Positions 7,345-20,440 of a stretch of 64,000 nt of DNA are shown here, piece after piece. Below the pieces are notes generated by a model. That model worked only from the letters and a program-made list of their open reading frames with translations, ran no database searches and had not been told where the DNA came from. The stretch covers positions 5,952,001 through 6,016,000 of the forward strand of contig NZ_RJKL01000001.1 in NCBI RefSeq assembly GCF_003751945.1, written 5' to 3'. Position numbers and translations under genes: made by a program. The number at the start of each line of letters is the position of its first letter. Position 1 is the first letter of the stretch. The stretch is from Couchioplanes caeruleus (GTDB lineage: Bacteria; Actinomycetota; Actinomycetes; Mycobacteriales; Micromonosporaceae).

Positions 7345-9855
7345 ATGGGGGAACCAGCCGGTCTGCTCGACGACTACCTGAGGATCGCCCGGTACCACGT
7401 GCAGCGGGCCGTGCCGCCCACGGCGATCCGGCTGCGCTCGCTGGAGATGCGCCGGCTGTTGGCGTACATCGCGCTGCGGGAGACGGGGGCCACGTACGCG
7501 GACCTGCTTGCCGCCGTACGCAGCGGTGACGTGGCCTGGCTGCGCCGGATCAAGCGGGACGCCCGCTCCTCCGTGCTCGCCGGGCTGGCGCAGACGCTGG
7601 CGTTGCAGGACATGCTTCCGGCGGACCGCACCGACGCGCTGGGGTTGTACGCGCTCGTCCGTGACGCGTGGGGTGCCCCCGCGATGCCGGGCGCCCACCA
7701 GGGACTGCACGCACAGCTCACGTACACCTGGCGCGGCGCCGACGCGGCTCGCGCGTTGCTGCGGACGTACTCGGGGATGAGCGAAGCCATCCGAACCGAC
7801 CTCGAGATCGACGTGGCGAATCCGTTCGCCGGCGACGGCGAACTGCCGGTGGCGCCGTGGCTCGCCGCGTTCCAGCGGCTGATGCCGAAGCCCTATCCGG
7901 CGCTCGACCCGGCCAACGGGTTGCCGCCGTTCGACCGGCTCACGGCGGCCGCCGAGCCCCTGCCGGTCGACGAGCCGCACCGGATCTCGGTCATCGTCAC
8001 CGCGTTCCACCCCGACGAGGGCCTGATCACGGCGGTCCGCTCGATCCTCGCCCAGTCCTGGCGCAACGTCGAGATCGTCGTCGTCGACGACGCGTCGCCG
8101 CCGGAGTACGACGAGATCCTGCAACGGGCGGCCGCGCTCGGGCCGCGGATCCGGGTGGTGAAGCAGCCGTACAACCAGGGCACGTACGCGGCCCGCAACG
8201 CCGGGCTCGACGCGGCCGAGGGCGAGTTCGCCGCCTTCCAGGACTCCGACGACTGGTCCCACCCGCGCCGCCTCGAACTGCAGGTGCGGCCGATGCTGGA
8301 GAACGCCCGCATCGTCGCCACCACCACGGACGGGCTGGCCGTCACCGAGCGGCTCGTGCTGACCCGCCCGGCGGTGCGGCGCGGCCGCTTCAACCCGTCC
8401 TCGCTGCTGTTCCGCCGCCAGCTCGTGATGGACCGGATCGGCTACTTCGACCAGGTACGCAAGGCCGCGGACTCCGAATACATCGGACGGATGCGGGCGG
8501 TCTACGGCGAACGGGCCGTGCGCCACATCGACTCCGAGCCGCTGGCGCTGATCCGGCTGTCCCAGGGGTCGCTGTCGCGCTCGGAGATCCGGGCGTACTG
8601 GATGCACCCGGCTCGGGTCGCGTACTCCTCGGCCTATCAGCAGTGGCACGGCCGCATCGCGGCCCGGGCAGCGAAGCCCTACCTTCCCCGCGAGGGCGGC
8701 GATCGGCCGTTCGCGGCACCCGACCACCTCCGGTACGGCCGCGGGGAGGCGCCGCCCCGCCCGGAGTACGACGTGGTGATGGCCGGCGACTGGCGGTTTC
8801 TGCAGGGCCCGCAACTGTCGGCCGTGGAGGAGATGCTGGCCCTCGCGGACCGGGGGCTGCGCGTGGCCGTGCTCCACCTCGAATCGCTGCGGCCGCCGGC
8901 CCGGCGGCGCTATCCGCTGGCGGGCCCGATCCAGAAGCTGGTCAACGCGGGGCGGATCGCCCAGGTGCTGCCCGGCGACGTCAACGAGGCGGCGCTGGTC
9001 GTCGTCCGGCACGCGGCGGCGCTGCAGTTCGCGCCGGACGACGAGTGCCTGTTGCGGCCCCGGCGGGTGCTGATCGTCGCGGATCAGGCCCCGGTGCGCC
9101 GCGACGGTCTCGACCACCGGTACGAGCCCGCGGCGTGCACGGCGACGGCGACGCGGTTGTTCGACGCGCCCGTGGTGTGGTGCCCGCAGGATCCCGAGGT
9201 CCGGACCGCCTTGCGCGGGTATCCGGCGCTCGAGCTGACGCCGTACGACCTGCCTGTCGTGATCGGGGCCGAGCGCTGGACGGCGGCGCGCGACGGCGCC
9301 ACGCGGGACGCGCCGGTGGCCGGCACGGACCTGTGCGACCAGGGAGTGTGGCCGCGGGACACCCGCGAGTCGCTGTACGTCTTCGACGGCCTGCGCAGGG
9401 TGGATGTGCGGCTGCGACTGCCGGACTGGCCGCGGATCGACGTGCAGCTCGGCGGTCCGCGCTCGCATCTCGTCTACGAGGCCGGCGACCTGGACCTGCG
9501 GACCTTCCTGCACCAGCTCGACTTCTACCTGCACTTCCCGCACCCCGAGACGGTGGAGACCTTCTCCCGCCCGGCGTGCGAGGCGGCGGCGCAGGGGTGC
9601 GTGGTGGTCACCCAGGAACGGCACGCGGCGGTCTTCGGCGATGCCGCCGTCTACTGTGCACCGGCCGAGGTCGCGGGGGTTGTCAAGCGTTACACCGAGG
9701 ACCGGGTGCTCTTCGCCGAGCAGAGCCGGCGGGCCCGCGCCGTCGTGGCCAACGCCCATCCTCCGCAGGCGTACGTGGACCGCATCGCCGCTCTGGTGCA
9801 CGCGCCGCGGCACTCCACGCCGGCCCAACGCACACCCGAGCCCGCGTGCGCGTAA
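7345..9855 (+). CDS. Bifunctional GT2 / GT-B-type glycosyltransferase
   Basis: This 836-residue cytoplasmic protein opens a surface-glycan island. Residues ~1-205 form an unassigned helical region. Residues ~212-400 are a GT2 domain (ISVIVTAFHPDEG, VVVDDAS near 246, QDSDDW near 301). Residues ~470-815 resemble a GT-B fold C-terminal half, with LHFPHPETVETFSRP and CEAAAQGCVVV near 720-760 typical of GT4-like donor-binding regions. Two active sites on one chain suggest a polymerase or a chain-extending enzyme adding two residues. It is followed by a methyltransferase. A modest AAGAAGAGG lies about 10 nt upstream of the ATG. The donor sugars are unknown. Confidence 0.8.
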   Translation: MGEPAGLLDDYLRIARYHVQRAVPPTAIRLRSLEMRRLLAYIALRETGATYADLLAAVRSGDVAWLRRIKRDARSSVLAGLAQTLALQDMLPADRTDALGLYALVRDAWGAPAMPGAHQGLHAQLTYTWRGADAARALLRTYSGMSEAIRTDLEIDVANPFAGDGELPVAPWLAAFQRLMPKPYPALDPANGLPPFDRLTAAAEPLPVDEPHRISVIVTAFHPDEGLITAVRSILAQSWRNVEIVVVDDASPPEYDEILQRAAALGPRIRVVKQPYNQGTYAARNAGLDAAEGEFAAFQDSDDWSHPRRLELQVRPMLENARIVATTTDGLAVTERLVLTRPAVRRGRFNPSSLLFRRQLVMDRIGYFDQVRKAADSEYIGRMRAVYGERAVRHIDSEPLALIRLSQGSLSRSEIRAYWMHPARVAYSSAYQQWHGRIAARAAKPYLPREGGDRPFAAPDHLRYGRGEAPPRPEYDVVMAGDWRFLQGPQLSAVEEMLALADRGLRVAVLHLESLRPPARRRYPLAGPIQKLVNAGRIAQVLPGDVNEAALVVVRHAAALQFAPDDECLLRPRRVLIVADQAPVRRDGLDHRYEPAACTATATRLFDAPVVWCPQDPEVRTALRGYPALELTPYDLPVVIGAERWTAARDGATRDAPVAGTDLCDQGVWPRDTRESLYVFDGLRRVDVRLRLPDWPRIDVQLGGPRSHLVYEAGDLDLRTFLHQLDFYLHFPHPETVETFSRPACEAAAQGCVVVTQERHAAVFGDAAVYCAPAEVAGVVKRYTEDRVLFAEQSRRARAVVANAHPPQAYVDRIAALVHAPRHSTPAQRTPEPACA

Positions 9856-9919
9856 CGGGCGGGGAGGCGCCGGAGTTAGGGGACGTGTTGAGACGCGCGC
9901 ACATCGGAGGTTTGAGCGA

Positions 9920-10963
9920 ATGAGCGGCCTGACCCGGTTCGGCGGTCGGCTGGCGGTACGGCTGCAGAGCCTGACCCGTCCGCAAGCGGTGGTGCTCATG
10001 GTGGTGCTGGCGCTCGTCGCCGGCGTCTGGACGGCGGCCGCCTCCGGGCATGCGGGCCTCGCCACCTCGCTTGTCGCGGTGCTGCTGCTCGGCGTGCTGC
10101 TCGGCATCCTGCATCTGTCGCGCTGGATGGCCGGGCTCTACCGTGCCAACCAGGCCGCCCACCGCGATCTGCGGATCGTGGTCGAGCAGATGCAACGCCG
10201 GGTGGTGGCGGGGGTCGAGAAAGAACGGCTCAGCGCGGGCGACCGGCACCAGGAGCTGACCCGGACCCTCGCCCGCGGCCTGCGCCAGCACGGGCACGGC
10301 AACGACCTGCTGCTGCGCGCGCAGAGCCGGGAGATCGAGGCGATGTTCCAGCTCTTCGCGGAATTCACGCCGCGGGCGCCGATGCCGTCCTCCGGCGACT
10401 TCGCGCTCAACCCGACGGACCTGCTCGACCTGCTGTACCTCGTCCGGCTGCGCCGGCCGCAGTTGGTGGTCGAGCTCGGCAGCGGCACGTCGACGGTGTG
10501 GCTCGCGTACGCCCTGGAGAAGACCGGCGGGCGGCTCGTCTCGCTCGACCACGACGGCGACTACGCCCGGAAGACCCGCGAGCAGCTCGACGCGCACGGG
10601 CTGTCGGCGGTGGCCGAGGTGCGTACCGCGCCGCTCACCGAGCTGGCCGTGGATGGCAAGACCTATCGCTGGTACGACGTCGAGAAGCTCGCCGACGTGC
10701 GCGACATCGACCTGCTGCTGATCGACGGCCCGCCCGCGGCGACGGGACCGGACGCCCGCTATCCGGCGCTGCACGCCCTGCAGAGCCGCCTGGCCCCGGT
10801 CGCCACGGTGGTCCTCGACGACGCCGACCGGCCCGACGAGCAGGACGCCGTCCGGCGCTGGACCGAGAACATCACCGGCCTGACCGCCGAGCCCCGGCTG
10901 TTGGGGCGGCACGCCGTGCTGTCGTACTCGCGCAGCGGCGCGCCGGCCTCCGTACCCGCGTGA
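9920..10963 (+). CDS. Membrane-anchored class I SAM-dependent methyltransferase
   Basis: The 347-residue protein has one or two transmembrane helices (about residues 24-62), a charged likely coiled-coil region (65-145) and a class I methyltransferase domain with the SAM-binding motif VVELGSGTSTVW (about 183). LLLIDGPPAA near 265 is typical of Methyltransf_24/CmcI-like enzymes. It probably methylates a sugar or lipid-linked glycan at the inner membrane face. The ATG follows GGAGG with 9-nt spacing. It lies 64 nt after the glycosyltransferase and ends at a long bidirectional hairpin. Confidence 0.82.
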   Translation: MSGLTRFGGRLAVRLQSLTRPQAVVLMVVLALVAGVWTAAASGHAGLATSLVAVLLLGVLLGILHLSRWMAGLYRANQAAHRDLRIVVEQMQRRVVAGVEKERLSAGDRHQELTRTLARGLRQHGHGNDLLLRAQSREIEAMFQLFAEFTPRAPMPSSGDFALNPTDLLDLLYLVRLRRPQLVVELGSGTSTVWLAYALEKTGGRLVSLDHDGDYARKTREQLDAHGLSAVAEVRTAPLTELAVDGKTYRWYDVEKLADVRDIDLLLIDGPPAATGPDARYPALHALQSRLAPVATVVLDDADRPDEQDAVRRWTENITGLTAEPRLLGRHAVLSYSRSGAPASVPA

Positions 10964-10967
10964 AAAA

Positions 10968-11001
10968 GACCGGCCGGCATGCGGGGGCATGCCGGCCGGT
11001 C
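10968..11001. terminator. bidirectional intrinsic terminator
   Basis: A perfect 15-bp inverted repeat (10968-10982 and 10987-11001) with a GGGG loop lies between convergent genes. Five A precede it on the plus strand, which gives a U-tract for transcripts of the minus-strand CAP gene. AGAAAAAA on the other side is less useful for the plus strand. Confidence 0.85.
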
Positions 11002-11060
11002 GAGGGGGAGAAAAAAGCCTTCGGTCCGCCCGTGGGTGGCGGTGGGGTGGTCGGAAGGGG

Positions 11061-11552
11061 TCAGCGGCTGCCGAACATCTGCGTGTAGTACGGCGTGCCG
11101 TTGGTCGAGTAGACGACGCCGACGGCGAACGTCCTGGCGCCGCAGTCGAGCAGGTTGCGACGGTGGCCCGGCGACTTCAGCCAGCCGTTGACGACCTCGC
11201 GGGCGCTGCGGTAGCCCCAGGCGATGTTCTCGCTGCGCGCGGCGGTGTAGCCGGCGGCGCGGGCCCGGGCGGCGAACGTGGAGTTGCGGGCGCCGGTGTG
11301 GCTGAACCTGCCGCTGGTGGCCATGTACTTGCTGTGGCCGCGGGCGGCCCAGAGCAGCGCCGCGTTGACCTTCAGCGCCTTGCAGCCGGCCTTGACCCGC
11401 GCCTGGTTCGACAGGCTCACGACCTGCGTCTGCAGCGTCGAGGTGGAGACCACGGCCGCCTGCGCGGGCGCTCCGGCGATGACCAGGCCGATGAACGCGG
11501 CGGCGGGGATCAGCGCGAGGGTGGCGAGGCGACGGACCAGGGTCTTCGGCAC
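11061..11552 (-). CDS. Secreted CAP-domain (SCP/PR1) protein
   Basis: The 163-residue protein has a signal peptide (positively charged start, hydrophobic core, AQA cleavage near residue 33) and a CAP domain with the conserved GHSKYMA, FSHTG, SENIAWG and WLKSPGHRRNLL motifs. These include the His/Glu pairs of the CAP cavity. Bacterial CAP proteins are extracellular and of unclear biochemical role. GTG at 11552 was chosen over GTG at 11558 because AAAGG lies 8 nt upstream of it. It is transcribed against the neighbouring glycan genes and ends at the strong terminator. Confidence 0.88.
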   Translation of the reverse strand: MPKTLVRRLATLALIPAAAFIGLVIAGAPAQAAVVSTSTLQTQVVSLSNQARVKAGCKALKVNAALLWAARGHSKYMATSGRFSHTGARNSTFAARARAAGYTAARSENIAWGYRSAREVVNGWLKSPGHRRNLLDCGARTFAVGVVYSTNGTPYYTQMFGSR

Positions 11553-11793
11553 GGGCACAACCTTTCGGGAACTCCGCCCCGGCGCTTGTTCGCCAGGTAC
11601 GCCATTCCCTTCGGAGGCCTGGCGGCATTCACTGATGCCTGTTCAGGTGCCTTGCCGTGAGTGCTGGGTTGCCGGTCGGGTACCTGGTCGAGCCGGGTTG
11701 CAACACCGGTCGAGGCCCGGGTGCAGACGGGTTGCCGACCCCGCGTCACTGCGACATTCCGGACATCGTTGGGCTGGTGTGAGCGCCGAGACC
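11553..11793. other. intergenic region between divergent CAP and membrane-protein genes
   Basis: About 240 nt separate the divergent starts. No clear ORF, long repeat or well-formed TANNNT element was recognised directly before either gene. Confidence 0.5.
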
Positions 11794-13419
11794 ATGGATG
11801 TCCCCCGGCAAGTGGCGACGCCCGCGGCGGTCGTGCCGGCGAATCGCTGCGGGCCGGCCGGGCGGCCCTGGCGGCGGGCGATGCTGCGCGCCGCCCTGGT
11901 GCCACTGGCCGTGCTGCTGCCGCTGGTGACGCTCGCGCCCACCGCGGACCACCGCTTCAACGTGTACTGGCACGGCGGCGACTTCCGCGCGCACCCGCTG
12001 CGCCAGCTCGCCGAGCCGTTCCGGACCGTGCCGATGTACCTGGAGTTCGGCAACTTCCGGCCGCTCGGGCGGCTGCTGGAGCGCGGCGTGGACGTGGCGA
12101 CCTACCTGCTGATGGAGGTCCTTCAGCTCCCCGCGAACATCGCCCTGCGCGTCGTGTCGATGCTGGCCGCGATGGTGCTGACCGCCGCGGCGATGCTGCT
12201 GGTGGAGAGCGTCACGGCGCGCGGGCGCCTGTGGCGCACCCCGCCGTCGGCATGCGCGATGCTGGTCCCGTACGGCGTCGGGGCCGCGCTCGTAGCGGCC
12301 GGCGGCACGAGCACGACCGTGCTCTTCGGCGGTCTGTACTTCCTCTCCGCGGCGCTGGTCCTCGGCGTCGCCGCCGTGTGCTGCCGGGCGGTTTCCGCGG
12401 ACGGAGCGCCGCTGCGCGCGGTCCCGGCCGTGGCCGCGGTGCTGTCGGGTTCCGCGCTGGCCGCGTTCAACGAGATCGCCTACCTGGCGCTGCCGCTCGC
12501 CACCGTCGCCGTCGTGGCCCGGGGGCGCCTCGTCCTCGGCCTCGATCCGCGTGCCCTGCTCGGCAATCGGGCGACCCACCTTGTGGGCCTGCTCTGGCTC
12601 GGCTTCCTTCCGGTGTTCGTCCCGGTGCGGTGGCTGATCGCGCGGGCCTGCGGCGCGGGTGACTGCTACGGCGGATCGGACGTCGTACTCGGGCCGGATC
12701 TCGGCCACGCCTGGGTGCATCGGATGGTCGCGTGGCTTCCCCCGGTGCAGTGGCAGGAGGCGACGCGCGGCACCCACGGGTTCTGGGCCGGGGGCCTGCT
12801 GCCCGTGCTGGCCCTGCTGGTACTCGTCCTGCTCGCCGCGGGCACCGCCGCGGACCTGCGGAGGCTGCCCGACACCGACCGCCGGGCGGCGTTGGCCGTG
12901 GCGGTCGGCGCGGGCACCGTGCTCGTCCTCGGCACGGCCCTTGCGGCGGCCGCCGCCGACAACCAGGCCGCGGCGAGCGCCGGTCGGTGGGGCCTCGGCT
13001 GGCGCGACAGCGGCCTCGCCGCGGCCGCCGGCGCCTCGGCGCTGCTGGGCCTGGTCCTCGCCCTCGCGAGATGGCGGCACACCCCGGCCGCCCTGCTGAC
13101 GCTGCTGGTCCTCGTCGCCGCCGCGTCCGCCGCCGCCAACGGCAGGTACGCGGTGAACACCGCGGACCGCCAGTCCTCGGTGCTCAACAACGCCATCGCG
13201 CACGAGGTCGCCGTCTTCGACCGGACGCCCGCCGGCAACGCCCGCCGGTGCGCGTTGAAGACGGAGTTCCGCGCGCTCTACCCGGACTCTCCCTACTCCC
13301 GGTTCGCCCGTGCCGAGCTTCCCGGCACCACGACACCGACCGAACGCCTCGAGGTGACGATCGACATGGCCACCAGACAGCTCTACGGCCGCCGGTTCTG
13401 CGCCCCGGACCAGCCGTGA
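11794..13419 (+). CDS. Polytopic membrane protein of the glycan island
   Basis: This 541-residue protein has about ten or more hydrophobic segments, a C-terminal soluble tail of ~90 residues (from AVNTADRQSSVLNN) and a short polar region after the first helix (HRFNVYWHGGDFRAHP). The topology recalls GT-C glycosyltransferases or uncharacterised membrane proteins paired with polyprenyl-phosphate sugar synthases, but no GT-C catalytic motif is certain. Its stop overlaps the start of the next gene (GTGA), a sign of coupling. The start is uncertain: GTG at 11779 is in frame, and neither has a good Shine-Dalgarno. Confidence 0.65.
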   Translation: MDVPRQVATPAAVVPANRCGPAGRPWRRAMLRAALVPLAVLLPLVTLAPTADHRFNVYWHGGDFRAHPLRQLAEPFRTVPMYLEFGNFRPLGRLLERGVDVATYLLMEVLQLPANIALRVVSMLAAMVLTAAAMLLVESVTARGRLWRTPPSACAMLVPYGVGAALVAAGGTSTTVLFGGLYFLSAALVLGVAAVCCRAVSADGAPLRAVPAVAAVLSGSALAAFNEIAYLALPLATVAVVARGRLVLGLDPRALLGNRATHLVGLLWLGFLPVFVPVRWLIARACGAGDCYGGSDVVLGPDLGHAWVHRMVAWLPPVQWQEATRGTHGFWAGGLLPVLALLVLVLLAAGTAADLRRLPDTDRRAALAVAVGAGTVLVLGTALAAAAADNQAAASAGRWGLGWRDSGLAAAAGASALLGLVLALARWRHTPAALLTLLVLVAAASAAANGRYAVNTADRQSSVLNNAIAHEVAVFDRTPAGNARRCALKTEFRALYPDSPYSRFARAELPGTTTPTERLEVTIDMATRQLYGRRFCAPDQP

Positions 13420-14405
13420 GTAGGCCTGCCGATCCACTCGTGTCGGTCGTCGCGCCGGTCTTCGACGAGGGCGACGGGGTGGACGGGTTCGTGCGGCGCA
13501 CCGGCGCCGTGCTGCAGGCGGCGGGGCTGCGCTACGAGCTGATCCTCGTCGACGACGGCTCCACCGACGACTCGTGGCCGCGGATATGCGCGCAGAGTGG
13601 CGCCGACCCGCGCGTCCGCGGCATCCAGCTCTCCCGCAACTTCGGCAAGGAGGCCGCCGTCCTCGCCGGGCTGGAGCACGCGGGGGGCGACGCCGTGGTG
13701 GTCATCGACGCCGACCTTCAGCACCCGCCCACGGCCATTCCCGCGATGGTGCAGTGCTGGAGCGACGGCGCCGAGGTCGTCGAGGCGGTCAAGCGCAACC
13801 GGACCGGCCAGCCGCCGGTCGCCCGCCTCGCCGCGTCGCTGTTCAACGCGACGTTCACCCGGCTCACCACCGTGGACCTGGTGAACGCCACCGACTTCCG
13901 GCTGCTGAGCCGACCGGCGTGCGACGCGCTGCTGCGGCTGCCCGAGCACTCGTCGTTCTTCCGGGGCACCTCGAGCTGGATCGGCTTCCGGCGTACGGTC
14001 GTGGAGGTCGACATCGACCACCGCGGCGACGGCGCGTCCCGGTGGACCTTCCGGTCGCTGTGCCGGCTCGCCGTCAACGGGTTGACGTCCTTCACCTCCG
14101 CGCCGCTGCACCTCGTGACGGTCGTCGGCTTCGGCTTCGCCGCATTCTCGGTCGTGCTCGGGGTGCAGACGCTCGTCAGGTGGCTGCGCGGCGGTTCCGT
14201 CGCCGGCTTCCCGACCGTGATTCTCGTGCTGCTCGTGATGGGTACGTTCATCCTGCTCGGCCTCGGGGTGATCGGGGAGTACCTGGCCCGCATCCACGAG
14301 GAGGTCCGCGGACGCCCGCGCTACCTCGTCCAGGGTCGGACCGGTCCGCCGGCGGGCGAGCAGCCGGTCATCGTCGGGCAGCGGGCCGAGCATGCCGAGC
14401 TTTGA
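13416..14405 (+). CDS. GT2 polyprenyl-phosphate glycosyltransferase (GtrB/DPM-like)
   Basis: The 329-residue enzyme has an N-terminal GT2 domain (VSVVAPVFDEGDG, LILVDDGSTDDSW near 45, VVIDADLQHPP near 105). Two C-terminal transmembrane helices (about 230-290) are typical of GtrB/ArnC-like synthases. These transfer a sugar from a nucleotide donor to polyprenyl phosphate for later export and transfer. It starts in a 4-nt GTGA overlap with the membrane protein and overlaps the following GtrA gene by 14 nt. The three genes therefore form a tight unit resembling gtrAB-gtr glycosylation modules. Confidence 0.9.
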   Translation: MSRPADPLVSVVAPVFDEGDGVDGFVRRTGAVLQAAGLRYELILVDDGSTDDSWPRICAQSGADPRVRGIQLSRNFGKEAAVLAGLEHAGGDAVVVIDADLQHPPTAIPAMVQCWSDGAEVVEAVKRNRTGQPPVARLAASLFNATFTRLTTVDLVNATDFRLLSRPACDALLRLPEHSSFFRGTSSWIGFRRTVVEVDIDHRGDGASRWTFRSLCRLAVNGLTSFTSAPLHLVTVVGFGFAAFSVVLGVQTLVRWLRGGSVAGFPTVILVLLVMGTFILLGLGVIGEYLARIHEEVRGRPRYLVQGRTGPPAGEQPVIVGQRAEHAEL

Positions 14406-14820
14406 CCTCGGCCGCCTGCTGCGCTACGGCGTCAGCGGTGCCGCGAGCACCGTCACCCACCTCGGCGTGGCCCTCGCGCTGCACGACGGCGCGGGGCTGT
14501 GGCCGGTCGTGGCGACCACGGTCGGGTTCGCGGCGAGCATCGTGGTGTCGTACACGTTGCAGCGCAACTGGGTGTTCCGGTCGGCGGTCGGCCACGGGGT
14601 GGGCGCGGCCCGGTTCCTCGCCGTCACCGCCGTGGCCTGGACCGTCAACACCGTCACGGTCGGTACGGGCACCTCCGTGCTGGGCCTGCCCTACGCCTAC
14701 GTGCAGGCCTTCGCCATCGTCTGCATCCCGATCGTGAACTACGCGCTCAACTCGCGCTGGACCTTCACCGCAACCGAGCCGCCAGCTCCGGAGCCAGCAG
14801 CCGGCTGTACGCGGTGGTGA
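14392..14820 (+). CDS. GtrA-family membrane protein
   Basis: The 142-residue protein has four hydrophobic helices and the GtrA family pattern (LLRYGVSGAASTVTHLG at the start, YTLQRNWVF mid-protein, YALNSRWTF at the end). GtrA proteins are thought to flip or stabilise polyprenyl-phosphate-linked sugars. It overlaps the GT2 synthase upstream by 14 nt. Its 3' end overlaps the convergent acyltransferase gene by 56 nt. Confidence 0.88.
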   Translation: MPSFDLGRLLRYGVSGAASTVTHLGVALALHDGAGLWPVVATTVGFAASIVVSYTLQRNWVFRSAVGHGVGAARFLAVTAVAWTVNTVTVGTGTSVLGLPYAYVQAFAIVCIPIVNYALNSRWTFTATEPPAPEPAAGCTRW

Positions 14821-16843
14821 CATGGTGCTGGTCGCGGTAGACCAGCACGTTGCCGATCACCGGCGGGCACGTCGTCCTGGTGCAGAACCACGGCGTCGGG
14901 TCGATGACCTTCGCGCCCGCCCGCTGTGCCGCCGCCGCGACCAGCGTGCGGCGCTCCGGCTTGGCGAGCGCCGTCTCGCGGGATCGGGCGCACGCACCGA
15001 CGTCGTCGAGGTGCTCCGAGAGGCAGTCGGGCACGTTACCGACCATCCACGGGGTGTCGTTCATGAAGAACACCTCGGTGTCGGGTGCGGACACCGCCCG
15101 GACGGACCGCTCCCATCCCGAGACCCATGCCTCCTCCTGCGTGCCGGGAACTCCGAGCAGCTCGCTGCTCGGATACGTCGACGCCATCAGGACCTTCGCC
15201 GGGCGCAGCGAGCGGATGTGCTGCCACGCGTCCCTGCGCCACCGCACGCACTCGGTGAACTCGCGTTTGAGCTGTGGCAGGTAGATCAGGCTGTCCGCGG
15301 CGGTGCAGGCGCTCTTGGAGACCACGACGAGCTTCCACCGCTCCTGCTGGGCGGCGGCCTCCAACGCGGGGAACCAGTGGCCGGCGTGCGAGTCGCCGAA
15401 CAGCACGACCGTGGTATCCGAAGTCAGGTCGCCGTACGCACAGGGCTTCTTCACCTCGGGATCGTCGAAGTCGCCGGAGCAACCCTCGCTGTAGTAGCGC
15501 GGCTTGTCCTTGCTCGCGTGCTGCAGCTTCGGCGTCAGGTTGGTGGGTACGGCGGGCGCGTCCACGCTCGCGGCGATCTGTGTGGCCAGGCTCCTCGGGT
15601 CGAGGGTCGCCGGGTCCAGCTCCGCGGCCCGGTAGGTCGGCGCCCCGCTGAGATGCGTGGCGGCGGACGTGACGGCGACGCACAGCGCGGCACAGAGCAC
15701 CGAGATGCCGAAGCCCACGCCGATGCCGCGCCACGGGCGGTTCCGCAGGGCGGCGAGGTGCCGTACCGGGTTCTCCACGAGCGCGTAGGTGAGGGCGGCC
15801 AGCGCCAGCGCGCCCAGCGCCACGAGCACGTTCTCCCAGACGGCGAGGGGCCGGCCGAGCGCGTGCGGCGCGATAAGCAGGGCCGGCCAGTGCCACAGAT
15901 ACCAGGAGTACGAGAGCCGCCCGACGGCCTGCAACGCGGGCAGCCCGAGCAGACCGGCCGGACGCCCGGTGCCGCCGGCGACCACCGCGGCGGTGCCCAG
16001 GACCGGCAGCAGGGCGGCGTACCCGGGAAACGGGGTCTGCGCGGTGTAGAGGACTGCCGACGCGGCGACGGCGACGAGGCCGGCGGGGACGCACCAGCGC
16101 GGCAGCCGCAGCGCGGTCAGCGCGAGCAGGGCGCCGACGCCGAGCTCCCAGGCGCGGGTGTGCGCCCCGAAGTACGCCCACCCGGCATTCTCGCGCGTCT
16201 GCCACAGCGCGACGGCGAGCGAGCCCACGGTCAGCAGCGACAGCACCGCGCCGAGGCCGCGCCGGCGGATGAAGACGATGATCAGCAGCGGCCAGACGAG
16301 GTAGAACTGCTCCTCGACCGCCAGTGACCAGAAGTGCTGCAACGGCGACGGTTCCGCGTCCGTCTGCAGATAGTCCGTGCCGACCGCCGCGAGCCGGTAG
16401 TTCATCGCGTAGACCGCGGTGTGCAGCGCGTCGGACAGGATCGCGCTCAGCCGCAGAGGCGGCAGCCACAGCGCGGAGGCCGCGACCGTGACCACCACCA
16501 CGACCGCGGAGGCGGGCAGCAACCGCAGGGCCCGGCGGGCGTAGAAGCGCGGGATCGACACCGTGCCGGAGCCCCGCGCCTCGCGCAGCAGCAGGCCGGT
16601 GATCAGGAAGCCGGAGATCACGAAGAAGACGTCGACGCCGACGTAGCCGCCGGAGACGAAGGGCAGACCACAGTGGTACGCGACCACGAGGAGCACCGCG
16701 ACCGCGCGCAGCCCCTCGATGTCGCGGCGGTGCCGGGGTGCTGCCGCGGCCGGGGCGGGAGTGCCGCCGGCCGGGGCCGGTCCGCTCGCTCGCGGGGTCT
16801 GCCGGGGGGAGGGCGCGACGGGCGCGATGCTCATCTCGGTCAC
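14765..16843 (-). CDS. OafA/YrhL-type acyltransferase with C-terminal SGNH domain
   Basis: The 692-residue protein has a Pro/Ala-rich cytoplasmic start, then an acyltransferase-3 membrane domain (RRDIEGLRAVAVLLVVAYH from about residue 38, VFFVISGFLITG, FWSLAVEEQFYLVWP). A long extracytoplasmic SGNH hydrolase-like domain follows (GDSHAGHW near 483, the HH pair near residue 671). Such proteins O-acylate surface polysaccharide. The GTG start overlaps the stop of the UDP-sugar dehydrogenase (GTGA). An in-frame ATG lies three codons downstream. Confidence 0.9.
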   Translation of the reverse strand: MTEMSIAPVAPSPRQTPRASGPAPAGGTPAPAAAAPRHRRDIEGLRAVAVLLVVAYHCGLPFVSGGYVGVDVFFVISGFLITGLLLREARGSGTVSIPRFYARRALRLLPASAVVVVVTVAASALWLPPLRLSAILSDALHTAVYAMNYRLAAVGTDYLQTDAEPSPLQHFWSLAVEEQFYLVWPLLIIVFIRRRGLGAVLSLLTVGSLAVALWQTRENAGWAYFGAHTRAWELGVGALLALTALRLPRWCVPAGLVAVAASAVLYTAQTPFPGYAALLPVLGTAAVVAGGTGRPAGLLGLPALQAVGRLSYSWYLWHWPALLIAPHALGRPLAVWENVLVALGALALAALTYALVENPVRHLAALRNRPWRGIGVGFGISVLCAALCVAVTSAATHLSGAPTYRAAELDPATLDPRSLATQIAASVDAPAVPTNLTPKLQHASKDKPRYYSEGCSGDFDDPEVKKPCAYGDLTSDTTVVLFGDSHAGHWFPALEAAAQQERWKLVVVSKSACTAADSLIYLPQLKREFTECVRWRRDAWQHIRSLRPAKVLMASTYPSSELLGVPGTQEEAWVSGWERSVRAVSAPDTEVFFMNDTPWMVGNVPDCLSEHLDDVGACARSRETALAKPERRTLVAAAAQRAGAKVIDPTPWFCTRTTCPPVIGNVLVYRDQHHVTTAYSRLLAPELAARLR

Positions 16844-18087
16844 AGCCGGTGCGCCTCCCGGTTGGTGGTGACGCCCCGGGTGTCGAAGAAGCGCTTCGCG
16901 ATGCCCGCCAGGTGGTCGGCGTCGTACTCGCGGTGGTGCTGCACCAGGATGACCAGGTCGGCGGCCGCGGCGGCGCCCTCCAGGTCGTCGGTGCGCGGCA
17001 CACTCCACTGCGTCACGTACGGGTCGTGGAAGGTGAGGACGGCGCCCAGCGACGAGAGGTGGCGAGCCAGGGGAGTGGCCGGCGACTCGCGCTGGTCGGC
17101 GATGTTCGGCTTGTAGGTGACGCCCAGCAGCAGGATCTTCGCGCCGTGCACGGCCACGCCGTCGGCGTTCAGCAGGTTCTGCGCGCGGCGGGCTACGTAC
17201 GCCGGCATGGTCGCGTTGATCTCCTGGGCGAGCTCGACGAAGCGGAAGGGGTAGCCGAGCTTGCTGCGGACGTTGTGGCTCAGGTAGTTCGGGTCGATCG
17301 GGATGCAGTGCCCGCCGACGCCCGGGCCGGGGTAGAACGCCTGGAAGCCGAACGGCTTGGTCGACGCGGCGTGGATGACGTCCCACAGGTCGATGTCGAG
17401 CTCGTGGCAGAACCGGGCCATCTCGTTGACCAGCGCGATGTTGACGTGCCGGTACGTGTTCTCCAGCAGCTTCGCGGTCTCCGCCTCACGGGTGCCGCGG
17501 GTGCGCACGACGGTCTCGACGAACCGGCCGTAGAACGCCTCCACCAGGTCGGTGCAGCCGGGGGTGTAGCCGCCGACGACCTTCGGGGTGTTGTGCGCGC
17601 CGAACCGCTCGTTGCCCGGGTCGATGCGCTCGGGCGAGAACGCGACGTGGAAGTCGATGCCCGCGGTCAGGCCGGACAGCTTCTCCAGCAGCGGGCGTAC
17701 CACGTCGTCGGTGGTGCCCGGATAGGTCGTCGACTCCAGCACGACCAGCATGCCGGACCGCAGGTGGCGCCCGACGGCCTCGGTCGCGCCGATCACCGCG
17801 CGCAGGTCGGGGCCGTCGCCCTCGGACAGCGGCGTCGGCACGCAGATGACCGCGGTGCCCGCCTCGGCGATGCGCGTCTCGTCGGCGGTCGTGCGGAACC
17901 CGCCGGCGATCATCTCCGCCACGTCGGCATCGGACAGGTCGTCCACGTGCGAGCGGCCCGCGCCGAGCGCGTCGACCACCGCCGGGTTGACGTCGAAGCC
18001 GAGCACGGACAGGCCGGCGCGGGTGGCCTGCTGGGCCAGCGGCAGGCCCACGTACCCGAGGCCGAGAATGACGACGTCGAAGCTCAC
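16840..18087 (-). CDS. Nucleotide-sugar (UDP-hexose) 6-dehydrogenase
   Basis: The 415-residue enzyme of the UDP-glucose/UDP-N-acetylhexosamine dehydrogenase family oxidises a UDP-sugar to a UDP-uronic acid with NAD. The Rossmann motif GLGYVGLPLA is at the N-terminus. VPTPLSEGDGPDL near 85 and the catalytic Cys in GPGVGGHCIPIDPN near 260 are intact. The sequence style is closer to WbpA/WecC-type enzymes than to UDP-glucose dehydrogenase. The GTG start is preceded by AAAGGAG. It sits between the Stealth gene and the acyltransferase in one minus-strand unit, so the polymer probably contains a uronic acid. Confidence 0.9.
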   Translation of the reverse strand: MSFDVVILGLGYVGLPLAQQATRAGLSVLGFDVNPAVVDALGAGRSHVDDLSDADVAEMIAGGFRTTADETRIAEAGTAVICVPTPLSEGDGPDLRAVIGATEAVGRHLRSGMLVVLESTTYPGTTDDVVRPLLEKLSGLTAGIDFHVAFSPERIDPGNERFGAHNTPKVVGGYTPGCTDLVEAFYGRFVETVVRTRGTREAETAKLLENTYRHVNIALVNEMARFCHELDIDLWDVIHAASTKPFGFQAFYPGPGVGGHCIPIDPNYLSHNVRSKLGYPFRFVELAQEINATMPAYVARRAQNLLNADGVAVHGAKILLLGVTYKPNIADQRESPATPLARHLSSLGAVLTFHDPYVTQWSVPRTDDLEGAAAAADLVILVQHHREYDADHLAGIAKRFFDTRGVTTNREAHRL

Positions 18088-18111
18088 GTAGATCTCCTTT
18101 GCACGGACCCG

Positions 18112-19929
18112 TCAGGCGACGGGCGAATTGGTGGCGGCCGGCCCGCCGTGCGGCTGGACCGGCACGGCGACCTCCGGCGCCTTGCCGGTGGCGCCGGGTG
18201 CCAGCGCCGGGCCCCGGTCGACCTGGGGCAGGAGCGGGGGAGCGAGTCGCGCTCCGGTCAGCTCGTACGGCGACGCGAACGGCAGATACGCCGGCAGGAA
18301 CTCGTCGAGCAGCGCCGCCTGCTCGGCGGCGACCGCCTCGTTCGAGTCGGTGTCGTTGAGGCAGAACGCGTCGAGGTTGCGGTGCCGCAGCAGGCCGGCG
18401 AGCTTCAGCGGCGTCGCCGGATTGGCCAGGTCGGCGTACGCGTAGGCGATGGTCCCCGGCACTGCCCGGCCGGTCAGGTACGCGTAGTACTGCTGCAGCG
18501 ACGACAACAGGGAGATGTCGTCGGGGTGCCGGAACTGATGCCCGGCGGTGGCGTCGACGTGCTCGGCGAAGCGCTGCTCGATCTCGGCGATGACGCCGCG
18601 CCGTGACGGATGCGGCGTGTGCATCATCTTGCGGGTCAGCACCCGGCCGAACGTCTCGCGGATCAGCTCGCGGTTGTTCTTGCCGGCCGAGTCGGCGGGC
18701 GGGTCGTCGGGCCGCCGCGGCGCCGAGTCCACCTGGGCGCTCGAGAAGAAGAACCGGGTCAGTCCGCCCGGCGTGAAGAACATGTCGGGGGAGACGGGCC
18801 GGCCGAGGAACACGTCGTCGTTGAGGTAGAGGAAGTGCTCGCTGAGCCCGGGGATGCGGTGCAGCCGCGACTCGATCGCCTGCGAGTTGAAGGTCGGCAG
18901 CCGGCCGGTGTCGCCGAAGATCTCCCGATGGCTGACCACGGTCAGGCCCGGGTAGCCGGCGTCCAGCCAGTCCGGCACCTGGTCGTCGGTGACCAGGTAG
19001 ACGTGGTTCACCCAGGGCGCGAAGCAGTGCAGGGCGCGCAGCGAGTAGCGCAGCTCGTCGCGGGACGTGTAGCGCGAATCGTTGCTGGCGAGCCGGCTCG
19101 CCTCGTCCAGCCAGGCGTTCTCGGCCAGCGCGGCCGCCTTGCGGGCCCGCCACTGCGGGTCGCCGCCGTCGACCCAGGTGTAGACGACGTCGATCGGGAA
19201 ATCGATCCGGTCCGGGCTCGGCAGGGTGAAGATCTGCCGGGTCCGGTACGCCGTGCGGTCGTGCGGCGAGCTGAATGGGCCGAAGGCCGGTTCGGGTGCG
19301 GTCACCACCGGCTCGTCGAGCGGGATCACGTCGGCGATCGGGTTGCCGCGCGGGCCGGTCAGGACGCCGTCGCGCTCGGTCCAGAACTCGATCTCGCAGC
19401 CCAGGTCCGGGCCGAGCAGGAGCCGGCCGCGCGGGTCGGTGACCGGCCAGCAGACCTTCAGGATCGCCGCGGCACCCGGCTTGGCGCGGCGGGGCTTGAC
19501 GACGTCGAGCATGCCGGCGTGTCCCTCGGTGATCCCCCGCAGGAGGCGCAGCACCGCGGGCCGGTCGGCCGCGCGAACGGCCACCGCCGTCGTGCGCAGG
19601 GCCTTGGTCGGGATCCGGAACCAGTCGACGCCCGCCTCGTCGAGCGCGGCGACGACCCGGTCCAGGTTCTCCCGGCGTACGCCCGTGGGGCTGGCGGCGG
19701 TCTCGCGCCGGGCGGTGACCCACCCCCGGGCGGTGCGGACCCGCATCGTCGGCGCGTCCGCGCCGCGCATCAGCGAAAGCCGCGGCGGCGGGTCGAGCGA
19801 CACCAGGCGGCGGGCGACCCCGAGCCGCTGGGCCTCGGCGACGTGCGGCAGCACGCGGCGTTGCACGGATTTGAGGATGCGTGACCGGACTTCCCAGGGC
19901 GCCAGTCGCAGGATCCGCCGTAGAGGCAC
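18112..19929 (-). CDS. Stealth-family capsular polysaccharide phosphotransferase
   Basis: The 605-residue protein has the Stealth conserved regions. CR1 is around DVVYTWVDGGDPQW (near 246). CR2 includes DELRYSLRALHCFAPWVNH (near 290) and LNDDVFLGRPV. CR3/CR4 are around HQFRHPDDIS and the stretch ending FCLNDTDS (near 510). Stealth proteins are sugar-1-phosphate transferases related to the human GlcNAc-1-phosphotransferase GNPTAB; several build phosphodiester-linked capsules. The first ~200 residues are an extra lineage-specific domain. The GTG start follows AAGGACGAG. It heads the minus-strand unit with the dehydrogenase and acyltransferase. Confidence 0.92.
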   Translation of the reverse strand: MPLRRILRLAPWEVRSRILKSVQRRVLPHVAEAQRLGVARRLVSLDPPPRLSLMRGADAPTMRVRTARGWVTARRETAASPTGVRRENLDRVVAALDEAGVDWFRIPTKALRTTAVAVRAADRPAVLRLLRGITEGHAGMLDVVKPRRAKPGAAAILKVCWPVTDPRGRLLLGPDLGCEIEFWTERDGVLTGPRGNPIADVIPLDEPVVTAPEPAFGPFSSPHDRTAYRTRQIFTLPSPDRIDFPIDVVYTWVDGGDPQWRARKAAALAENAWLDEASRLASNDSRYTSRDELRYSLRALHCFAPWVNHVYLVTDDQVPDWLDAGYPGLTVVSHREIFGDTGRLPTFNSQAIESRLHRIPGLSEHFLYLNDDVFLGRPVSPDMFFTPGGLTRFFFSSAQVDSAPRRPDDPPADSAGKNNRELIRETFGRVLTRKMMHTPHPSRRGVIAEIEQRFAEHVDATAGHQFRHPDDISLLSSLQQYYAYLTGRAVPGTIAYAYADLANPATPLKLAGLLRHRNLDAFCLNDTDSNEAVAAEQAALLDEFLPAYLPFASPYELTGARLAPPLLPQVDRGPALAPGATGKAPEVAVPVQPHGGPAATNSPVA

Positions 19930-20200: not shown

Positions 20201-20440
20201 ATGGGCAAGGCAGTGGCCTACCTGGTGGCGATGATCGCCGGTGTGATCGTCGTGGGCTGGGTGGCGGTGGTGGTGCTGGACACGCTGCTCGGCGCGCTCG
20301 GATACCTGATCGTGGGCGCGCTCGTGGTCGGCGGCGGCGTCTACCTGTACGGCAAGGCCAAGAAGGGGCTCGCGCCCGGCACCCGGACGCAGCGCCGGAT
20401 CGAGGCGGCCGCGAAGACGTACCGGATGCGCAACCGGTGA
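20201..20440 (+). CDS. Small two-helix membrane protein
   Basis: The 79-residue protein has a hydrophobic N-terminal half with two transmembrane segments (about residues 5-27 and 30-48, Gly/Val-rich). A basic C-terminal tail follows (KAKKGLAPGTRTQRR). The ATG follows AAGGGAG. No function is recognised. It lies directly upstream of ffh, in the same orientation, after the island. Confidence 0.7.
   Translation: MGKAVAYLVAMIAGVIVVGWVAVVVLDTLLGALGYLIVGALVVGGGVYLYGKAKKGLAPGTRTQRRIEAAAKTYRMRNR

Follow-up and report, generated by a model that had tools for sequence, protein, structure and literature searches.

A glycan locus between glnD and ffh of Couchioplanes caeruleus corresponding to the Actinoplanes missouriensis gsf cluster, and its predicted phosphoglycan product

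Introduction

The gsf cluster (AMIS_70380-70480) of Actinoplanes missouriensis 431T was described by Tezuka and Ohnishi in June 2026, and its deletion, reported for A. missouriensis only, gave smaller sporangia, uneven or immature spores and fewer released spores (PMC13390465). The window analysed here is a stretch of 64,000 nucleotides from the genome of Couchioplanes caeruleus (8.43 Mb, 2 contigs), in which nine envelope-type genes and one small membrane open reading frame (ORF) beside ffh are located between glnD and ffh. Judged by its protein families, gene order and position, this island is orthologous to gsf and is the window's copy of the glnD-ffh glycan locus of the Actinoplanes group. 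With a confidence somewhat above even, we favour the reading that the locus is gsf, that its core genes would direct the synthesis of a Stealth-linked phosphoglycan containing an N-acetylhexosamine (HexNAc) uronate, and that a cassette in its middle would add a side sugar.

Enzymes related to the island proteins are known from other systems. CpsY, a Stealth protein, was assayed as a phosphotransferase with UDP-N-acetylglucosamine (PMC10668966). In group 2 capsule polymerases, a domain that transfers hexose phosphate is described as being coupled to glycosyltransferase domains of the GT-A or GT-B type (PMC5974469), and multi-component transmembrane glycosylation systems are described as consisting of a GtrA flippase, a GT-A enzyme and a GT-C enzyme (PMC8035078). 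In a literature search on such a polymer or on a glnD-ffh locus, PMC13390465 was the only paper found to treat the cluster, and the words glnD, ffh, conserved and homolog are absent from its main text. The genus-wide presence, the fixed core and the optional GtrA/GT-C cassette described below seem to be unreported in the literature searched.

Results

The island corresponds to the gsf cluster

The glnD-ffh interval in the genome of A. missouriensis 431T (G206) contains 11 glycan-type genes in the order published for AMIS_70380-70480. They encode a Stealth protein, a UDP-HexNAc dehydrogenase, GtrA, a family 2 glycosyltransferase (GT2) with two transmembrane (TM) helices, an 11-TM protein, an unknown protein, a GT28-C protein, a GT2, an AT3 acyltransferase, a methyltransferase and a further GT2, and they are followed by three genes, glnD, one for a P-II protein and amt, that by their order would be AMIS_70490-70510. 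The GT28_C domain lies at residues 619-685, the same residues as printed for AMIS_70440 (PMC13390465). The window shares with gsf the position between glnD and ffh and eight families, namely Stealth, the UDP-HexNAc dehydrogenase, GtrA, GtrB, the 11-helix protein, AT3, the methyltransferase and the terminal GT2 protein. On the other hand, gsf has AMIS_70430-70450 (a small protein, a GT1/GT28 protein and a second glycosyltransferase), whereas the window lacks all three; correspondingly, it is without the families designated cc and A2 and without a second A-type glycosyltransferase. Because A2 and cc vary across the genus (31 and 35, respectively, of 47 full islands), orthologues of AMIS_70430-70450 do not define the locus type. 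The window also differs in having a CAP gene, and its acyltransferase gene stands at another place in the order and on the opposite strand.

The features of the island are listed in Table 1. Its GC content (about 0.70-0.75) is inside the range of both flanks. The methyltransferase B has 2 hydrophobic helices at its N-terminus, and the start of D is uncertain, since 11779 and 11794 are also possible and codon scoring favours 11779 over 11881. J, which was missing from the gene list of a preliminary description of this window, was found in 53/53 genus loci, always beside Stealth, and its sole Pfam match was holin-like and sub-threshold. That description had reported that envelope-glycan genes separate glnD and ffh, which is confirmed over 13.2 kb with the genes at or near the positions it gave, and the functions it read for them were right by family searches. 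It had also put the pathway forward as the best candidate for an undescribed one, a suggestion that falls with the orthology to gsf and its published deletion phenotype (PMC13390465).

Table 1. Positions and assignments of the features between glnD and ffh in the window
Feature	Position	Strand	Assignment	Basis and remarks
Island	glnD end 7273; ffh start 20505			13.2 kb
A	7345..9855	+	bifunctional glycosyltransferase	N-terminal helical region, GT-A (~200-460) and GT-B (~470-820); core gene
B	9920..10963	+	membrane-anchored S-adenosylmethionine (SAM)-dependent methyltransferase	Pfam Methyltransf_24 7e-13; core gene
C	11061..11558	-	secreted CAP-domain protein	Pfam CAP 2.3e-20
D	11881..13419	+	membrane glycosyltransferase of predicted GT-C fold	11 hydrophobic helices
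E	13416..14405	+	GtrB-type polyprenyl-phosphate glycosyltransferase	GT2 and 2 TM; Pfam Glycos_transf_2
F	14392..14820	+	GtrA-type flippase	Pfam GtrA_DPMS_TM (PF04138) 7.5e-20, whole profile matched
G	14765..16840	-	AT3 acyltransferase fused to SGNH domain	Pfam SGNH 3.6e-33, Acyl_transf_3 5.6e-29 (longer ORF)
H	16840..18087	-	nucleotide-sugar 6-dehydrogenase, UDP-HexNAc type	TIGR03026 405 bits, above cut-off
I	18112..19929	-	Stealth sugar-1-phosphate transferase (by family)	Pfam Stealth CR1-CR4, all above cut-off; core gene
J	20201..20440	+	small membrane protein, 79 residues	adjoins Stealth and ffh
D-E-F cassette	11687..14781			~3.1 kb; in window, missing from compact islands

Fixed ends and a variable middle across the genus

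Loci were obtained from 53 of 67 genus genomes, i.e., 47 by the ffh anchor, five more and the window; the 14 genomes left out include G154 and G108, for which the pieces obtained (L149 and L151) stop short of ffh. Six loci do not reach glnD (G001, G009, G011, G030, G031 and G040), and the 47 with both genes are referred to as full. In most loci the sequence piece ends just 5' of ffh, and the ffh position was taken from the ffh-anchored survey. Gene orders were derived with our own ORF caller and BLAST clustering, and ORFs with internal stops were excluded. The loci are all from different species and are therefore uninformative on variation within a species. A second set, the named collection, overlaps with the genus-genome loci, so the two are not independent.

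An island between glnD and ffh was present in 47/47 full loci, with a length of 9,995 to 31,423 bp (median 18,565), and a chance cluster is therefore rejected. In the survey anchored on ffh, which did not select for Stealth, a Stealth gene was located beside ffh in 47/47 genus genomes other than that of the window. A Stealth match was obtained in all 67 genus genomes, covering residues 2-252 only in G210. In the named collection, Stealth adjoins J and ffh in 40 of the 69 loci having a Stealth relative, and the titles of these 40 are Actinoplanes, Paractinoplanes, Couchioplanes, Winogradskya, Pseudosporangium, Nucisporomicrobium, Symbioplanes, Jidongwangia and Mangrovihabitans. The remaining 29 Stealth loci do not show this arrangement; at least 3 are from the same family and most are from elsewhere.

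Among the 47 full islands, A, B, Stealth and J occurred in 47, H in 45, C and G in 39 each, D in 35, and E and F in 31 each. A and B were the first two genes in 44/47, and H, Stealth and J the last three in 45/47. The locus thus has fixed ends and a variable middle. Capsule loci likewise have fixed ends and a variable middle. Over the best aligned segment, identity to the window was 80-87% for glnD, 82-98% for H, 61-92% for Stealth, 44-83% for A, 41-92% for G and 43-86% for D.

Aromatic-degradation genes occur among the glycan genes of some islands (e.g., L103:5973-7844 and L097:6870-8603), a catechol dioxygenase fused to an iron alcohol dehydrogenase (Fe-ADH) in 8/53 and an aromatic hydroxylase in 7/53, and an AraC regulator in 6/53 (e.g., L102:10569-11453).

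The D-E-F cassette

D, E and F were all present in 29/47 full islands, all missing in 12/47, and partly present in 6/47. When the window was compared with compact islands, the DNA similarity ended and restarted at the cassette edges in 7/7, with the two flanks 21 to 135 bp apart, and inside the cassette the sole DNA match was a run of 33 bases shared with a different part of G017. By one and the same search, D was found in 51/67 genus genomes and had no match anywhere in the other 16. Mapped on the glnD tree, the presence or absence of D-E-F must have changed at least 7 times, and 5 of these changes are forced by well-supported branches. The window is nested among cassette-less relatives by forks with support of 89 and 90 only, on a tree without G030, the window's nearest relative. 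In the lineage of the window the cassette may have been gained recently, or there may have been repeated losses. Close to the cassette junction, the 3' ends of the GtrA gene (+) and the AT3-SGNH gene (-) share 56 bases (14765-14820) in a tail-to-tail overlap.

No Pfam or NCBIfam family at the thresholds used and no PDB sequence family was found for D, and it was therefore examined by its fold. The 11-helix protein is predicted from its model to have a GT-C fold, which would complete a GtrB-GtrA-GT-C set. The preliminary description listed D simply as a membrane protein; it is indeed an 11-helix protein, and it probably belongs with GtrB and GtrA. The Asp at residue 23 of D was the same in all 41 sequences compared. 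The window would thus have all three parts of a multi-component transmembrane glycosylation system, E as GT-A, F as GtrA and D as GT-C, although its D differs in lacking a recognised sequence family. At least 120 homologues of D were obtained from 8,000 candidates scored, and among the 120 listed, one (P0071) was named 4-amino-4-deoxy-L-arabinose transferase by a source. Three D-type genes per island are present in G043, G013 and G022, and two in G004, G020 and G036, which suggests several side-chain additions.

Since the cassette varies among islands, the nine genes need not share one backbone. They had been read in the preliminary description as serving one polymer, and this can still hold for a part of them, with the GtrB/GtrA/GT-C cassette coming and going. 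The polymer features deduced there, O-acyl groups, a uronic acid and phosphodiesters, are reasonable predictions from the families.

The locus in other genera of the family

Outside the genus, glnD was located in 90 genomes, and 35 of their loci were sampled, of which 34 have both glnD and ffh and one is without ffh within 20 kb. In these 34 the two genes are separated by a median of 310 bp; 19 gaps are <1 kb, 9 are 1-4 kb and 6 are >=4 kb, so that the compact order presumed earlier for relatives is real for the family. The description of the island as an insertion, in the sense of an odd event, does not hold within the genus, where the island is the norm. The locus is universal in the genus sample, but most of the family lacks it, and it has no assigned polymer.

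Relatives of island proteins were detected in one of the 34 loci (L118:3282-7699, from G107 of another genus), where the glnD-ffh gap encodes an A-type glycosyltransferase, Stealth (52%) and J together with a protein of secreted type. This is possibly a minimal form of the locus, close to the ancestral one. Full-length relatives of A (35-45% identity) are also present in genera without a glnD match at E 1e-60 (G083, G090, G092, G093 and others).

Protein families of the dehydrogenase, Stealth, acyltransferase and GtrB proteins

The scores of H against NCBIfam models were 243 and 228 bits for UDP-N-acetylmannosamine (UDP-ManNAc) dehydrogenase, 216 for TviB, 162 for AglM and 102 for TuaD, all below the equivalog cut-offs; the last is the comparison with teichuronic acid (tua) synthesis, 102 bits to TuaD versus 243 to UDP-ManNAc dehydrogenase. 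In the PDB, the UDP-N-acetylmannosaminuronic acid dehydrogenase 4r16, Cap5O (3ojl) and the N-acetylgalactosaminuronic acid dehydrogenase 3g79 outscored the UDP-glucose dehydrogenases. The GGHC motif was found in 51/51. Because H is closer to UDP-N-acetylhexosamine dehydrogenases than to UDP-glucose dehydrogenase, the acid made via H is more likely a HexNAc-uronate, and the general assignment as a UDP-sugar dehydrogenase, which was correct, can be refined accordingly. An assignment of H as a UDP-glucose dehydrogenase is not favoured by the same scores.

The Stealth protein I matched CpsY (8j2n, 1.2e-78) and GNPTAB (7s6n, 4e-45) in the PDB and is 92% identical to the Stealth protein of Couchioplanes caeruleus subsp. 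azureus. By its sequence it shares with these phosphotransferases the four conserved regions, and the CR1 (IDVVYT-like) and CR4 (C[LI]ND) motifs were found in 53/53 genus loci. It differs from CpsY and GNPTAB by a 240-residue N-terminal extension without a Pfam domain. The arrangement is analogous to that of the group 2 capsule polymerases, where glycosyltransferase domains and a sugar-phosphate transferase likewise give phosphate-containing repeats, but the transferase of those Gram-negative enzymes is TagF-like and fused, and in the window a separate Stealth protein would take its part. Extra Stealth genes elsewhere in the genome were seen in 15/67 genus genomes (E up to 1e-60; e.g., G206:C1:175661-181651, L160), and in several genomes two of them are near each other.

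For G, the NCBIfam model SucT scored 291 bits, below its cut-off of 1275. For E, PgfS (230 bits) and ArnC (169 bits) were both below cut-off, and the closest solved structure was sll0501 (5ekp, 5e-61), followed by ArnC (9bhc, 1e-48). Motif patterns other than Stealth CR1/CR4 and GGHC were not universal: Stealth CR2 in 43/53 and 33/53, AT3 in 35/44, SGNH D..H in 32/44, GtrB in 11/33, and D in 39/45 and 34/45.

A predicted pathway

From the orthology, the fixed position, the core/accessory structure, the protein families and the predicted folds, all of which the analysis shows, we infer the following biochemical steps. H would oxidise a UDP-N-acetylhexosamine to the uronic acid (step 1), and A, by its GT-A and GT-B domains, would add two sugars, one of them possibly that uronic acid, on the cytoplasmic side (step 2). 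Stealth would use a UDP-sugar to transfer sugar-1-phosphate, so that repeats or branches become joined by phosphodiesters (step 3), and B would O-methylate the glycan (step 4). The chain would then be exported by a system encoded outside the island, since none of the island genes was recognised as encoding an oligosaccharide flippase, Wzy or an ABC exporter (step 5). Outside the membrane, G would O-acylate the glycan (step 6), and in the window E would load polyprenyl phosphate with one sugar, F would flip it, and D would attach it to the glycan outside (step 7). Steps 1-5 would form the constant pathway, step 6 would be common (39/47), and step 7 would be the variable side-chain cassette.

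Discussion

Several points weigh against the reading of the locus as a gsf-type pathway for a Stealth-linked phosphoglycan with a cassette-derived side sugar. No oligosaccharide flippase, Wzy, ABC exporter or ligase was recognised by Pfam among the island genes of the window, whereas Wzx/Wzy or ABC-exported capsule clusters encode the exporter or polymerase in the locus. H is absent at the locus in two of the 47 full islands (G005 and G027), and the GT-C call for D is a prediction from a mostly helical model. The presence of the cassette tracks descent on the glnD tree (0/500 shuffles as clustered), and the cassette is therefore not freely exchanged. Single deletion of AMIS_70460, one of 22 acyltransferase genes tested, is reported to give no change visible by scanning electron microscopy (PMC11064477), and the literature found describes no isolated product or product chemistry for gsf. 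C. caeruleus is reported to form flagellated arthrospores (PMC11960193), and the sporangium phenotype of gsf may for this reason not carry over to the window; the locus would then either have a role beyond sporangia or make a different polymer. Finally, Δgsf sporangia still hold matrix, and the A. missouriensis authors assume that gsf decorates another matrix polysaccharide (PMC13390465).

In this published hypothesis, which is the authors' own model, the whole of gsf is a GtrA-dependent apparatus decorating sporangium-matrix polysaccharides from wps-1 (and imp). The matrix made by the mutant fits it. The wps-1 product is predicted by its A. missouriensis authors to be a sulfated polysaccharide, and the part of wps-1 that can be placed runs from the GH26 gene/wpsE on, its genes being assigned by their position and order. 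This part is colinear in the genome of the window, where 9 consecutive ORFs have their best matches in the same sequence (L183:1136 to L183:12722 versus L184, G000:C1:3270000-3289999; 61-85% identical), which is in keeping with this model. However, it is A, B and Stealth that occur in every full island; GtrA is found in 31/47, and 12/47 have none of D, E and F. In addition, the authors propose the GtrB protein AMIS_70410 as a possible extracellular transferase and give no domain for AMIS_70420 (PMC13390465), which looks like a GT-C enzyme in our model. We therefore regard decoration by the whole cluster as a serious possibility, though an unlikely one.

It is less probable still, and quite doubtful in our view, that the glnD-ffh interval is a hot spot of unrelated envelope genes, with separate polymers as the targets of the CAP protein, the acyltransferase, the GtrB-GtrA-GT-C cassette and the Stealth unit. 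Such a hot spot would account for the number of gene orders in the 47 loci, which is 21 for the 12 common families and 31 for all ORFs, for the unrelated cargo of some islands (the aromatic-degradation families f14/f15 and the AraC regulator, f16) and for island genes lying on both strands. Nevertheless, A-B and H-Stealth-J hold the ends in 44 and 45 of the 47 loci while the middle varies, and the gsf genes of A. missouriensis are reported to be jointly activated early in sporangium formation. A recently acquired island limited to this strain or species, which the compact glnD-ffh order of other genera might suggest, is highly improbable and is rejected for the core, given the Stealth match in every genus genome, the island in every full locus and a GC content within the range of the flanks.

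The phosphoglycan reading can be extended to a capsule-type ('serotype') locus of the Actinoplanes group, specifying a wall phosphoglycan not described so far. Its Stealth/HexNAc-uronate backbone would be constant, its side chains would change as cassettes are gained and lost between the fixed ends, the published GtrA pathway would be only one optional decoration, and the polymer would serve hyphae or spores generally and not just sporangia. This extension is tentative, and we place its probability somewhat below even.

A seemingly orphan locus is now tied to a published developmental phenotype. Beyond the main text of the gsf paper, the island is found genus-wide in one fixed place, and the GtrA system that gave the cluster its name does not belong to the constant part. 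AMIS_70420 and its orthologues, with their predicted GT-C fold, are candidate enzymes for the extracellular transfer step. The nature of the sporangium and spore-surface glycans in these bacteria is now open to specific single-gene tests.

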